A DNA stretch of 37,032 bases, from NCBI GenBank assembly GCA_947625695.1, contig CANQPO010000016.1:1-37032 (forward strand), given 5' to 3'. The notes under the pieces were generated by a model that had not been told where the DNA came from, made no database searches, and was given only the letters and a program-made list of their open reading frames with translations. Origin of the DNA: an uncultured Clostridia bacterium. GTDB taxonomy: Bacteria > Bacillota > Clostridia > Christensenellales > Borkfalkiaceae. The translations under genes and the position numbers were made by a program. This document shows, one piece after another, positions 28,853 to 32,402 of the stretch. Positions within the stretch are counted from its first letter, which is position 1. The number at the start of each line of letters is the position of its first letter.

Positions 28853-30491
28853 TCACCCCTCCCGTTTCCAAGAATATCTGCAGTAAGTGTCCGTCAAATA
28901 CTGTGCCGCTGTTGCAGGGTCATCAAGCCCAGAAAGAGGTTGCTCTATGCCGAAATATATTAACAACGCTTTCCACTCATTAGGGTTTTCAAAATACACT
29001 TTTTTCAAACTGCCACAATCCTCAAACGCACTATATCCAATTTCGGTCACATTGCTTGGAATGGTGATTGAAGTTAACCCACTGCAACCATAGAACGCGC
29101 CATCTCCTATTGAGGTCACGCCACTGCCAATGCTGATAGAAATCAATCCTATGCAATTCTCAAACGCGCCATCTCCAATCGAGATCACGCTACTGCCAAT
29201 GCTAACAGAAGCCAATTTAATGCAAGTGGAGAACGCGAAGGGTCCGATCGAATGTACATTCTTTCCGATGGTGACGGAAGTTAATTCAATGCAATTAAAG
29301 AAGGCGGAATTTCCAATCGAAGTGACGCCGTCGCCGATTACAACCGACGTCAAACTGTTACAATGTTCAAAAGCATAATCTTCAATAAAATTCACATTGT
29401 CTGGAATTTTAAGTTCATCTTTCAATCCGCACCCTACAAATGCATACGCCCCAATCGAAACGATGCTGTCGGGTATGGATATTTCGGTTAATTCGGAGTT
29501 TCCAGAAAATGCTTCACCCGCAATCACCGTTGTGCCTTCTTTGATCTTGTATTTCCCCGAAATCTCTTCAGATGCTTCCATCAAATATTTTCCGAGATAA
29601 ATTACGCCGCTCTCATCTTTCTCTCCGTTTTTCTCCAAAATAATCGGTCCCGCCGAAAACATATTCTCCGATCGACGTAAGCGTTTCGGGGAGAACGAGA
29701 TCGGTCAACTCGGTACATCCGTAAAACATGTGACCGGGGATCGAGAGAATACCTTCTCCAAAAGTCACCTTTTGCAACTTTGTTTTATTAAAAAGGCCGG
29801 GTTCTAAGCTTAACGAATAAACTTCTTTGCAGTTCTTGGCATTCCAGTTGACCGTCGTTAAGTTTTCGCAGGCGTAAAACGACCGATCTCCTATCTCCGT
29901 CACATTTTTCGGTATCGTAACAGCGGTCAATCCGTTGCAACCATAAAACGCATTACTTCCAATCGAGGTCACGCTGTCGGGAATGGTGATTGAAGTCAAC
30001 CCGCTGCACTCCGCGAACGCCCTTCTTCCAATCGAGGTCACGGGCTTGCCGTCATAGTTGTTTGTAATGATGAGATCGGTATCTTTGCAATCGCCGAGAC
30101 CTGAAACTTCGTATTCTTTGTCCTCGTTGATGAGGGTATATTCGAGTCCGAGGCTTGCCTTTGTTCCGCAGACTTTGCAGGTCATATTCTCAAAGTCATG
30201 CCCCACGAGCGGAAGGGCCTCCGTCTCCTTTTCCCCGCAGGCGCAGGAACGCTCTTTTATGCCCGTTTTTTTGCAGGTCGCTTCTTTTGTCACCTTCCAT
30301 TCGCCGAAAGAATGGACGTGCGGCGCGGGTGTGCTCCCTTGCTCACCCTGTTCGCCTTGATTGCCGCTCGGGTCGGTGATGGGTGGATTGTTGCCCGTTT
30401 CGTCGCTCTTCTCGCCGCACGCCGTAACGCTAAACGCCATGCAGAAGGCCGTTGCGATCGCCATGAGGACGACCAAAAATTTGTGTTTCAT
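28853..30491 (-). pseudogene. BspA-like leucine-rich-repeat lipoprotein, one-base frameshift
   Basis: Two open frames overlap at 29613-29662: 30491-29613 (292 codons) and its continuation to 28853. The front part has a lipoprotein signal (SVTACGEK), a GNQGEQGEQG linker, a cysteine/histidine zinc-ribbon-like unit (HVHSFGEW...CACGEKE...CKVCGT) and BspA-type LRRs (LTSITIPDSVTSIGSNAFYGC). The rear part continues with eight or so repeats (GVTSIGNSAFFNC, SVISIGDGAFENC). Removing one A from the A5 run (plus strand T5 at 29628-29632) joins them into GGTDYFGENGEKDESGVIY, which fits the family. This may be a sequencing error, a true pseudogene or phase variation. Such proteins are surface adhesins. AAAGGAGAT lies before the ATG. 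Confidence 0.85.
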
Positions 30492-31197
30492 TTGTTTCTA
30501 TCTCCTTTTTAATTTTTACATTATTATTTTATTTTGTTTGCCCACCCCCTTAGTCCCCCTCTGGTGGAGGGGGTTCCGTTGCGCGAGGTTCCGCTTGCCC
30601 CCTCCGTGGGAGGGGGGGTAGGGGGGTGGGGCGTTTTCTATTTGTCATTTCGCCCTGCACTTCTAAATATGTCATTTCGACCGCGCGCAGTTCTGATTCT
30701 CTAAGCGCGGCACGAGCCGCAGGCGAAGTACCAAGCGCAGCGCGTGGAGAAATCTCACATTACTAAAATAAGGTAGAGATTTTTCGACTACGCTCGAAAT
30801 GACATTTTAGAATGGCGTGCTAAATCACGTCACCCTGAGCCTGTCGAAGGGTGTCCGCATTATAAACAAGGACATTCCTCGACTACGCTACTTCGCCTTC
30901 GGCTCGTGCCGCGCTTAGAGAAACAGAACTTCGCGCGGGGCGGAATGACGTGATTTTAGAATTGTGTTCCGCTAACCCCCACTTGCTGTCCCTTTTAGGG
31001 AAAGAGGCATGAGCGTAGCGAATGACGAAAGGGTTTCTGTAAATTCGCTGAAACCCCTCAGTCACCTGCGGTGACAGCTCCCCTACAGGGGCGCCAAGGT
31101 TGCCCACCCCCTTGGTCCCCCTCCGGTGGAGGGGGTTCCGTTGCGCGAGGTTCCGCTTGCCCCCTCCGTGGGAGGGGGTTCGGTGGAATGGGAGGGC
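30492..31197. repeat. Composite intergenic repeat cluster 5
   Basis: Starts after the AT-rich leader of the lipoprotein gene (30492-30534). From 30540 it holds two copies of a 'cccacccccttagtccccctc ... ggaggggg' module (30540-30632 and 31101-31190), a GTCATTTCGA...TCGAAATGAC palindrome at 30671-30803 enlarged by an insertion near 30690-30740, a 'caccctgagcctgtcgaagggtg' element (about 30831-30852), and a 'ctgtcccttttagggaaag ... cccctacaggggcgcc' module (about 30986-31095). No credible gene. Confidence 0.78.
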
Positions 31198-31229
31198 AAA
31201 AAATAAGGACGCTCCAATACGGAGCGCCC
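31198..31229 (-). terminator. Intrinsic terminator of the small RNA
   Basis: A 9-bp stem (one G-U) with a 5-base loop and TTATTTTTT tail on the minus strand. Confidence 0.8.
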
Positions 31230-31343
31230 GCAAATGAGTATCCCCGTATTGTTTGCGTCACAATTCTTTTACACACATGGGAAAAAGAAGGATACACCAA
31301 CTGCCTGTTGTAACCCAGTGTGTACAGTATGAAATTGTGACGC
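31198..31343 (-). ncRNA. Candidate structured small RNA or attenuator
   Basis: A minus-strand promoter at 31378-31350 would start RNA near 31343, exactly at a perfect 11-bp closing stem (31343-31333 with 31265-31255). An 8 x 4 internal loop follows, then a second stem (31324-31314 with 31281-31270, one bulge) and a 32-base apical region. The 3' end is an intrinsic terminator (31229-31221 with 31215-31207, loop AATAC in plus orientation) followed by a T-run (31206-31198). An 8-base antiterminator pairing (31251-31244 with 31222-31215) excludes that terminator. About 145 bases. I could not match it to 6S, SRP, tmRNA or a known riboswitch class. Confidence 0.65.
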
Positions 31344-31349
31344 GGTTTT

Positions 31350-31378
31350 ATTCTACCATAGGTTGTGGAAAATTGCAA
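31350..31378 (-). promoter_or_regulatory. Promoter of the candidate small RNA
   Basis: Minus strand TTGCAA (31378-31373), 17-base spacer, TAGAAT (31355-31350). Confidence 0.7.
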
Positions 31379-31398: not shown

Positions 31399-31434
31399 AA
31401 AAAAGCCGCCCGCGGACGAAGGTCCGCGGGCGGC
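31399..31434 (-). terminator. Intrinsic terminator of fba
   Basis: A perfect 13-bp stem (31434-31422 with 31417-31405), 4-base loop, then six T on the minus strand. It lies 32 bases past the fba stop and 21 bases before the small RNA promoter. Confidence 0.93.
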
Positions 31435-31466: not shown

Positions 31467-32402
31467 TTATGCTTTTCCTGCGCTTCCGAGCACGTCCACG
31501 ATCTTGTGCTTCACCATTTCCTTCATGTTCGCCCGTGCGTCGCCGAGATACTGGCGGGGGTCGAAGTGGGAAGGGTTCTCCGCAAGGTGCTTTCTCACCG
31601 CCGCGGTAAAGGCGACGCGCAGGTCGGAGTCGATGTTGATCTTGCAGACGGCGAGTTTTGCGGCCTTTCTCAGTTCGCTTTCGGGAATGCCGATCGCGTT
31701 GGGCATGGAGCCGCCGAATTCATTGACGATGGCGACTTGGTCTTGCGGCACGCTCGAAGCGCCGTGAAGGACGATGGGGAACCCGGGAAGCCTTCTGCCG
31801 ATCTCTTCCAAGATGTCGATGCGGAGCTTGGGGTCCTGCCCGGGCTTGAATTTATAGGCGCCGTGGGAGGTGCCGATGGCGATCGCAAGGGAGTCGATGC
31901 CTGTTCTCGAGGTAAATTCCTGCACTTCGTCGGGAGAGGTGAACATCGCGTCGTGCGCTTCCACGTGGACGTCGTCCTCAATGCCCGCAAGTTTGCCGAG
32001 CTCGGCCTCTACGACAACGCCGTGGTCATGGGCGTATTCCACCACCTGCTTGGTGAGGGCGATGTTCTCCTCCCAAGGCTTGGAGGAAGCGTCGATCATG
32101 ACGGACGTAAAGTTGTTTTCGATACAGCTCTTGCAGATCTCGAAGTCTGCGCCGTGGTCGAGGTGAAGGGCGATGGGAATATCCGTCTCCTCCGCCGCGG
32201 CATATACAAGGTGGCGAAGATAGGTGGGGTTGGCGTACTTTCTCGCGCCCGCGGACACCTGCAAAATGACGGGAGAACGGCATTCGTTGGCCGCTTCCAC
32301 GATGGCTTGGATCATCTCCATATTGTTCACGTTGAATGCGCCGACCGCATAGCCGCCCGCATACGCTTTTTCGAACATTTCCTTGGTTGTTACTAAAGGC
32401 AT
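31467..32402 (-). CDS. fba: Class II fructose-bisphosphate aldolase
   Basis: 311 residues, full length. The class II aldolase fold starts at EMFEKAYAGGYAVGAFNVNNMEMIQAIVEAA. Zinc and substrate residues are visible: IALHLDHGADFE (the D and H of HLDHG), VEAELGKLAGIED, HDAMFTSPDEVQEF, AIAIGTSHGAYKF (zinc His), LHGASSVP (zinc His) and CKINIDSDLR. It splits fructose-1,6-bisphosphate in glycolysis. GGAGGGG lies before the ATG. It has its own promoter and terminator. A short inverted repeat (ATTGAA/TTCAAT, 32415-32431) sits just past the -10 and could be an operator. Confidence 0.96.
   Translation of the reverse strand: MPLVTTKEMFEKAYAGGYAVGAFNVNNMEMIQAIVEAANECRSPVILQVSAGARKYANPTYLRHLVYAAAEETDIPIALHLDHGADFEICKSCIENNFTSVMIDASSKPWEENIALTKQVVEYAHDHGVVVEAELGKLAGIEDDVHVEAHDAMFTSPDEVQEFTSRTGIDSLAIAIGTSHGAYKFKPGQDPKLRIDILEEIGRRLPGFPIVLHGASSVPQDQVAIVNEFGGSMPNAIGIPESELRKAAKLAVCKINIDSDLRVAFTAAVRKHLAENPSHFDPRQYLGDARANMKEMVKHKIVDVLGSAGKA

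Follow-up and report, generated by a model that had tools for sequence, protein, structure and literature searches.

What is the function of the structured RNA predicted on the minus strand of positions 31198 to 31378 of contig CANQPO010000016.1 (assembly GCA_947625695.1)? The window, i.e. the whole stretch of 37,032 nucleotides (nt) that was analysed, comes from an uncultured Clostridia bacterium of the family Borkfalkiaceae (order Christensenellales). A sequence-only reading had noted at this locus a promoter, two stems, a terminator and a competing antiterminator strand, a layout that would fit a riboswitch or attenuator of none of the recognised classes, or else a stand-alone small RNA. 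Here, we argue that the RNA is a cis-acting, strand-swapping leader that attenuates transcription, that it represents an unnamed class without a match in Rfam 15, and that it controls genes for envelope proteins. Judging from sequence comparisons, we give this view a probability of about three in four. The proposed layout is supported, as the alternative pairings are conserved and no Rfam family was found at gathering score.

The leader and its alternative pairings

Copies of the leader have a common layout, in which a promoter is followed by a closing stem (P1), a variable stem (P2), an apical hairpin formed by segments a and b (a·b), a segment c, a segment a′, and an intrinsic terminator whose segment c′ pairs with c (c·c′). 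In the window copy, the features named in the sequence-only reading were all found at their expected places, and the minus-strand RNA spans 31343-31198. A promoter scan gave the pair TTGCAA-17-TAGAAT, with the −35 box at 31373..31378 and an extended −10 box, preceded by TG, at 31350..31355, the end of which lies 6 nt 5′ of P1. The P1 5′ arm GCGUCACAAUUU (31332..31343), located at or adjoining the expected transcript start, pairs with the 3′ arm GAAUUGUGACGC (31255..31266), as indicated by the fold and by compensatory change; written as DNA, GCGTCACAATT(T) at 31343-31332 faces (G)AATTGTGACGC at 31266-31255, giving 12 pairs. The second stem, P2, has 11 pairs and one bulge; its arms (31314..31324 and 31270..31281) were assigned from the fold and from permutation of partners (0/5000), and the 5′ arm differs in sequence and length among copies. 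Enclosed by P2 are segment a, GGUUACA (31309..31315), the first two bases of which fall within P2 and which is the local partner of b; the apical loop motif GGCA (31302..31305), which copy alignment shows to be GCCAA or GGUAAAA in other families; segment b, GUAUCC (31290..31295); and, 3′ of b, a pyrimidine-rich single strand defined by comparison of copies (31282..31289). Beyond P1 lie segment c, CAAUACGG (31244..31251), which is the 5′ strand of the antiterminator, and segment a′, GGAUAC (31238..31243), the pseudoknot partner of b. The partner of c, segment c′ with sequence CCGUAUUG (31215..31222), overlaps the 5′ arm, the loop and the first base of the 3′ arm of the terminator hairpin GGGCGCUCC-GUAUU-GGAGCGUCC (31207..31229, from fold and alignment), and a U-rich tract (31199..31206) completes the terminator. 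Segments a, b, c and a′ were assigned with an own-partner test described below, supplemented by pair counts for b and a′ and by complementarity for c.

The swap of eight bases that had been proposed earlier holds, CAATACGG (31251-31244) being the exact complement of CCGTATTG (31222-31215). A second swap had been missed: GTATCC (31295-31290) has two possible partners, GGTTACA (31315-31309) upstream of it and GGATAC (31243-31238). The predicted fold of the window copy has an energy of −53.1 kcal/mol, compared with −32.6 ± 3.8 kcal/mol in shuffled sequences (z −5.4; 0/200 shuffles equal). Upstream of the leader lies fba (aldolase, 31467-32402), which ends in a strong terminator-like hairpin of its own (31434-31405), and the leader unit therefore looks insulated.

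Promoter-like pairs are not rare by themselves, 4 being present in 3 kb against 2.1 expected. Nevertheless, a sigma70-like pair with at least 9 of 12 matching positions was found within 48 nt before P1 in 160/180 copies (91/99 in the genus of the window, 35/41 in other genera of the order and 34/40 elsewhere in the class, vs 7-17% in shuffled sequences), and in 148 of the 160 promoter-bearing copies 4-6 nt separate the end of the −10 box from P1, the start of P1 in the 40 class copies being taken as the start of the match plus 6. Such tight coupling between promoter and P1 is unusual among riboswitches, and because the spacing is so tight it suggests that the 5′ end of the transcript coincides with P1 or is only a few bases away.

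The stems were expected to show compensatory changes in relatives, and this is what we found across a class; the lack of conservation that would have spoken against the proposal was not observed. RNAalifold, applied to 29 aligned copies (set A1), returned P1 and the terminator, with 12/20 pairs having both bases altered in one or more copies. When the named structures were counted in the same copies, 96.5% of the cells were paired and 12/26 pairs had changes on both sides, a level of pairing reached by 0/500 shuffles and by no slid version. Position 4 of P1, for example, is UA, AU, CG, GC or GU, the partner changing along.

Each pairing was then compared, by binding energy and permutation, between a copy's own partner and partners taken from other copies. 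The copies for this comparison came from two fetched sets, the first with 50 matches, of which 41 were used after removal of one truncated copy and of 8 shadows that the P1 palindrome produces on the opposite strand, and the second with 94 matches, of which 76 were used after removal of 14 shadows and 4 truncated copies. Together with the 29 copies of A1 these make 146 items, 140 of them distinct; 5 copies with misparsed or unclear P1 were excluded from the pairing and overlap tests, leaving 135, and the a·b test omits copies in which no loop was recognised (5 in the genus, 1 other). Within the genus (N=99), own partners bound better than other partners for P1 (−18.9 vs −11.7 kcal/mol), P2 (−14.2 vs −4.7), c·c′ (−13.8 vs −9.45) and, with N=94, a·b (−6.55 vs −5.96), each at 0/5000 permutations, and for the pairing of b with a′ (b·a′; −17.0 vs −16.4 kcal/mol) at 2/5000. 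All five pairings gave 0/5000 in other genera of the order (N=36; a·b N=35), where support for b·a′ is mainly found (−15.8 vs −12.3, and 0/5000 also when permuted within genus); with one copy per genus (N=16), b·a′ and c·c′ again gave 0/5000. In other orders (N=39, one of the 40 copies, L275, being omitted), a·b, b·a′, P1, P2 and c·c′ each reached 0/10000. For P2, a·b, b·a′ and c·c′ this last result is independent of the structure of the search model R2, because P1 and the terminator are the only pairings in R2 and none of those copies had entered the model. Thus, an antiterminator that excludes the terminator is kept by compensatory change in all three groups (c·c′ at 0/5000, 0/5000 and 0/10000), as in an attenuator, and the leader contains a conserved folded domain with alternative structures, as in a riboswitch.

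Segment a′ is a near-repeat of a, as illustrated by copy L259, in which a is GAGAAGTATTTTT, b is AAAAATGCATTCTC and a′ is GGAGTTATGCATTTTT. Therefore b has two alternative partners, and c′ also has two states. The likeness of a to a′ is above chance in other orders as well, though modest (best 8-mer 6.46 vs 6.05 identities, 1/10000). Judged by sequence, almost every copy has a promoter of its own and the strands needed for P1, P2, a·b, b·a′, c·c′ and the terminator, b being pairable with a or a′ and c′ being available to either the antiterminator or the terminator. Two further pairings were tried and rejected: that of the P1 3′ arm with c gave inconsistent results (4907/5000 in the genus, 27/5000 elsewhere), and that of the apical loop with bases after a′ was unsupported (202/5000 and 2327/5000).

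Distribution and downstream genes

In the genome of the window, BLAST placed the leader at 8 positions below an E value of 1e-7, and R2 gave 11 matches at E≤2e-4, one of which is the window copy. Clear matches among 61 genomes were confined to the same genus, the best E value outside it being 0.04. A pattern scan gave at least 116 stretches, and the titles of the 80 listed are all those of uncultured Clostridia metagenome-assembled genomes named 'Lapin', which are taken to be rabbit samples. Two covariance models extended the family. R1, built from A1, matched 86/103 genomes of the genus and 52/297 genomes of the order, in 23/125 genera, at E≤0.01. R2, built from 36 diverse copies, matched at E≤0.001 114/396 sampled genomes of the order, in 39/142 genera, and 85/391 sampled genomes of the class, in 48/222 genera, 78 of these 85 lying outside the order of the window; the distant copies that were fetched are the better-scoring part of the R1 order matches and the R2 class matches. 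A phylum sample of 299 genomes gave no match beside the window's own genome, at least nine same-class genomes being among the negatives of this control. If our view is correct, the presence of the leader in 48/222 sampled genera of the class and in none of the other 298 genomes of the phylum sample would describe a widespread class of regulatory RNA with an orphan signal.

Leaders also occur as closely spaced tandems on the same strand, e.g. L229:2035-2183 with L229:2258-2410 and L019:1240-1404 with L019:1506-1650, further pairs being present in G632:C42, G636:C80, G735:C33 and G051:C30. Tandem arrangement is known for some riboswitches.

Viral contigs gave 0 matches for three exact patterns, and plasmids gave none for one query. 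Two records named 'Bacteriophage sp.', L287 (MT835845.1) and L288 (MT837627.1), match at about 79% identity, and by eye their leaders precede lipoprotein-like and zinc-ribbon-like open reading frames (ORFs). We did not accept carriage by phages, because the genes of MT835845, as read by eye and without a family search, look bacterial and chromosomal.

Which genes follow the leader? A gene start was defined by a ribosome site and start codon in the genus and the order, and by a coarser rule (an ORF of at least 60 residues) in other orders. On this basis, a coding region starts no more than 60 nt after the intrinsic terminator, as expected of an attenuator, in 65/97 genus copies that have room and in 32/39 copies of other genera of the order, and in 17/40 copies of other orders; the remaining genus copies have their start at 61-200 nt (14/97), at 201-600 nt (13/97), or further away or not at all (5/97).

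The coherence of these targets was measured in the genus and order copies, where a distinct protein was available within 600 nt for 93/99 genus and 34/41 other copies, and the first 330 residues were scanned with Pfam. In the genus, 39/93 targets matched LRR_5 (BspA type) and 10/93 Zn_Ribbon_1, and in the other genera (n=34; 25 of 30 families listed) LRR_5 was found 6 times, Flg_new (List_Bact_rpt) 3 times and Band_7_1 twice. According to simple pattern rules, a lipobox is present in 62/93 genus targets and in 14/34 targets of other genera, vs 11/295 neighbouring ORFs, and a lipobox, an N-terminal hydrophobic segment or a CxxC pair in 85/93 vs 59/295; CxxC alone is not enriched in other genera (1/34). 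In the window's own genome, 7/10 of the best leaders are followed on their own strand, within 3 kb, by an LRR_5 gene (chance 2.5%, p 6e-10, tested with 31 clusters from the stronger of 111 LRR_5 matches), and so are 8/12 when two weaker leaders are included. Hence, in the genus and the order, the leader precedes mainly genes for cell-surface proteins, which may serve in meeting the host and neighbouring cells. The target genes do not point to any candidate ligand; the effector, once found, would show what these bacteria sense before they remodel their surface.

Some individual downstream genes deserve mention. One leader (L023:1501-1650) lies about 170 nt before a match to S-adenosylmethionine synthetase, which is odd among envelope genes. 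Small proteins that by eye resemble SLOG/DUF1273, with a GH motif near the start, follow leaders of different families: the ORFs downstream of L222, L228 and L229, one genus target, and the first codons after L263 and L276. The L222 candidate, the only one scanned singly, gave no Pfam match, and no such family is among the Pfam families listed for the targets. Furthermore, 3/20 distant loci (L191, L204 and L209) contain transfer RNA (tRNA) genes at a distance of up to about 300 nt from where the leader starts.

Switching model and rival explanations

In the mechanism that we propose, as long as a held b, the c·c′ pairing alone would be too weak, the terminator would win and only a short RNA of about 145 nt would be made (OFF). 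Nascent a′ could displace a from b, using the unpaired pyrimidine flank of b as a toehold; b·a′ and c·c′, lying side by side, would then constitute an antiterminator stabilised by a pseudoknot, and the envelope-protein gene would be transcribed (ON). The signal that tips the balance might be a small molecule, an ion, a protein or the speed of transcription. In the window copy, P1 and P2 with the terminator have a calculated energy of −51.1 kcal/mol and with c·c′ −42.1 kcal/mol, and b·a′ offers −7.4 kcal/mol. Since the c·c′ state is weaker than the terminator state and b·a′ adds −7.4, antitermination would come within reach only with the pseudoknot; these modelled energies fit a near-balanced switch that needs it. 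Each copy is bound to a promoter and able to form two exclusive folds, so that the leader would lend itself well to clean experiments on strand displacement during transcription. The chances appear about even that the leader acts throughout the class as an RNA sensor so far without a name: anchored to a promoter, it would exchange one strand between two partners of nearly the same sequence and thereby set the joint expression of surface lipoproteins and BspA-type adhesin-like proteins, as one regulon of Clostridia, in response to one general signal.

Several observations weigh against the attenuator view. The first gene is more than 200 nt away, or was not found, in 18/97 genus copies, and in other orders the start lies at 61-400 nt in 11/40 copies and is absent in 12/40, some of which lack contig. 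The b·a′ pairing is nearly invariant in the genus, with no double change in the 29 aligned copies and a small margin over other partners; the a·b pairing of the window copy itself is weak (−4.3 kcal/mol); and a few distant matches (L219, L225 and the second match in L210) have no clear P1. The permutation tests remove relatedness incompletely. Finally, the best c·c′ and b·a′ duplexes, when unconstrained, share 2-10 bases in 135/135 copies tested, and because of this overlap the joint formation of c·c′ and b·a′ requires that shared G residues be divided between them.

This overlap also bears on the polarity of the switch. If b·a′ invaded c, the same leader would work with the opposite sign, a·b leaving c free (ON) and b·a′ causing termination (OFF). 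We regard this as unlikely: in the window, c (31251-31244) and a′ (31243-31238) abut without overlapping, and c·c′ by itself falls 9 kcal/mol short of the terminator, so that it would need help. The reverse assignment, a·b as OFF and b·a′ as ON, is the polarity that we somewhat favour. As to what might act on the leader, it is conceivable, though still rather unlikely, that an antitermination or stabilising protein binds P1 with its conserved AAUA/GG internal loop. Such regulation would be an effector variant of the attenuator and compatible with it; P1 and the adjoining AAUA are by eye among the best conserved parts across the class, and the targets share a cell-envelope theme rather than a metabolic pathway. 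On the other hand, there is no candidate protein, none having been sought.

The remaining explanations would do away with the attenuator altogether. According to one of them, which the sequence-only reading had raised, the locus makes a stable RNA of about 145 nt that acts in trans, with no functional tie to the gene next to it. The leader does have its own promoter, in 160/180 copies, and its own terminator, as such an RNA should, the next gene in the window is 706 nt away, other orders have a start within 60 nt in only 17/40 copies, and b and a′ are nearly constant within the genus. We nevertheless consider a stand-alone RNA improbable, because most copies of the genus and the order (65/97 and 32/39) have a ribosome site and start codon no more than 60 nt downstream. 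Moreover, c·c′ covaries in cis, and the genes that follow are strongly non-random in the genus and the order, where a stand-alone RNA would have no fixed relation to a gene, although this point is weaker in other orders. A DNA-level element, with the P1 arms as inverted half-sites for a DNA-binding repressor by the start site or the whole as a mobile palindromic repeat, is much less probable still: P1 is well conserved in sequence, it follows the −10 box by 4-6 nt in most copies and the copies are dispersed, but the changes at position 4 of P1 preserve pairing and not a DNA site, and P2, a·b, b·a′ and c·c′ covary too. A repeat of the repetitive extragenic palindrome or miniature inverted-repeat transposable element type was rejected, as the copies have diverged with compensatory change and lie mostly upstream of genes. 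Least probable of all is an attenuator that senses translation of a leader peptide. The arrangement of a, b and a′ resembles the 1:2 and 2:3 pairing of classical attenuators; however, a ribosome site, a start codon, at least five codons and a stop occur inside the leader in only 1/99 genus and 5/41 other copies scanned, and the transcript should start at P1 or adjoining it.

Known classes and the surroundings of the window copy

That none of the known classes fits, as the sequence-only reading had suggested, agrees with a covariance search of the window against Rfam 15, in which 0 families reached the gathering score. For a 331-base stretch, this search at E≤10 gave 19 matches, all below gathering scores; most of them overlap the fba terminator at 31405-31434, and the best has an E value of 0.0015. 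Searching 32 further loci (30 distinct places) against Rfam 15 yielded no family at the cut-off beyond tRNAs: a set of 20 loci gave only tRNAs, and a set of 12 loci gave at E≤0.1 two families, both below the cut-off.

The leader nevertheless resembles several known systems. In trp-type attenuators, segments pair as 1:2, 2:3 and 3:4, and here too termination is decided by which of two alternative partners one segment takes; unlike them, the leader has no conserved leader peptide. Cyclic di-GMP riboswitches occur in several copies per genome, often ahead of genes for surface proteins, as the leader does, yet it matched no Rfam family in the window or in the 32 further loci. The guanidine-IV (mepA) riboswitch of Firmicutes combines a pseudoknot with a terminator, and likewise has a hairpin followed by a terminator with long-range pairing; the leader differs from it in its target genes and in having no Rfam match (the presence of this model in the library being unchecked). 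The ZTP/pfl and fluoride/crcB riboswitches are transcriptional ON switches with a pseudoknot adjoining the terminator. With them the leader shares its position as a 5′ leader, a pseudoknot, competition between terminator and an alternative pairing, and plausible strand displacement, whereas the absence of an Rfam match, the fixed spacing between promoter and P1, the near-repeat of a in a′ and the envelope-protein targets set it apart. These motifs are mentioned in passages of PMC2864571 and in the abstract of PMC7337938. We recognised no description of the leader family among the top-ranked papers or in passages of PMC11109978, PMC8040213 and PMC2864571. According to passages of PMC8040213, 3161 RNA candidates come from human microbiomes; like the leader family, these are unnamed RNAs and some have terminators, and it is possible that the family has an unnamed entry among them, the supplementary tables not having been compared.

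In the window, the next gene downstream is, as had been noted, a BspA-like one beyond some 700 bases of repeats. It is a minus-strand BspA-type leucine-rich repeat lipoprotein gene at 29613..30491 (LRR_5, E 2.2e-33), the likely target, and starts 706 nt after the terminator. BspA-type coding sequence is found in two overlapping minus-strand frames, 28853-29662 and 29613-30491, both with LRR_5 matches; a frameshift within one gene, the presence of two genes or an error of assembly could each account for this. The dispersed repeats between leader and gene (30530..31196) look like a local insertion, because this stretch has 148 matches in its own genome. They include a 79-nt direct repeat (30538/31100) and are dense and partly palindromic, and another copy of the leader (C23:23474-23625) is followed, some 100 nt on, by one of the repeat matches (C23:23724-23851).
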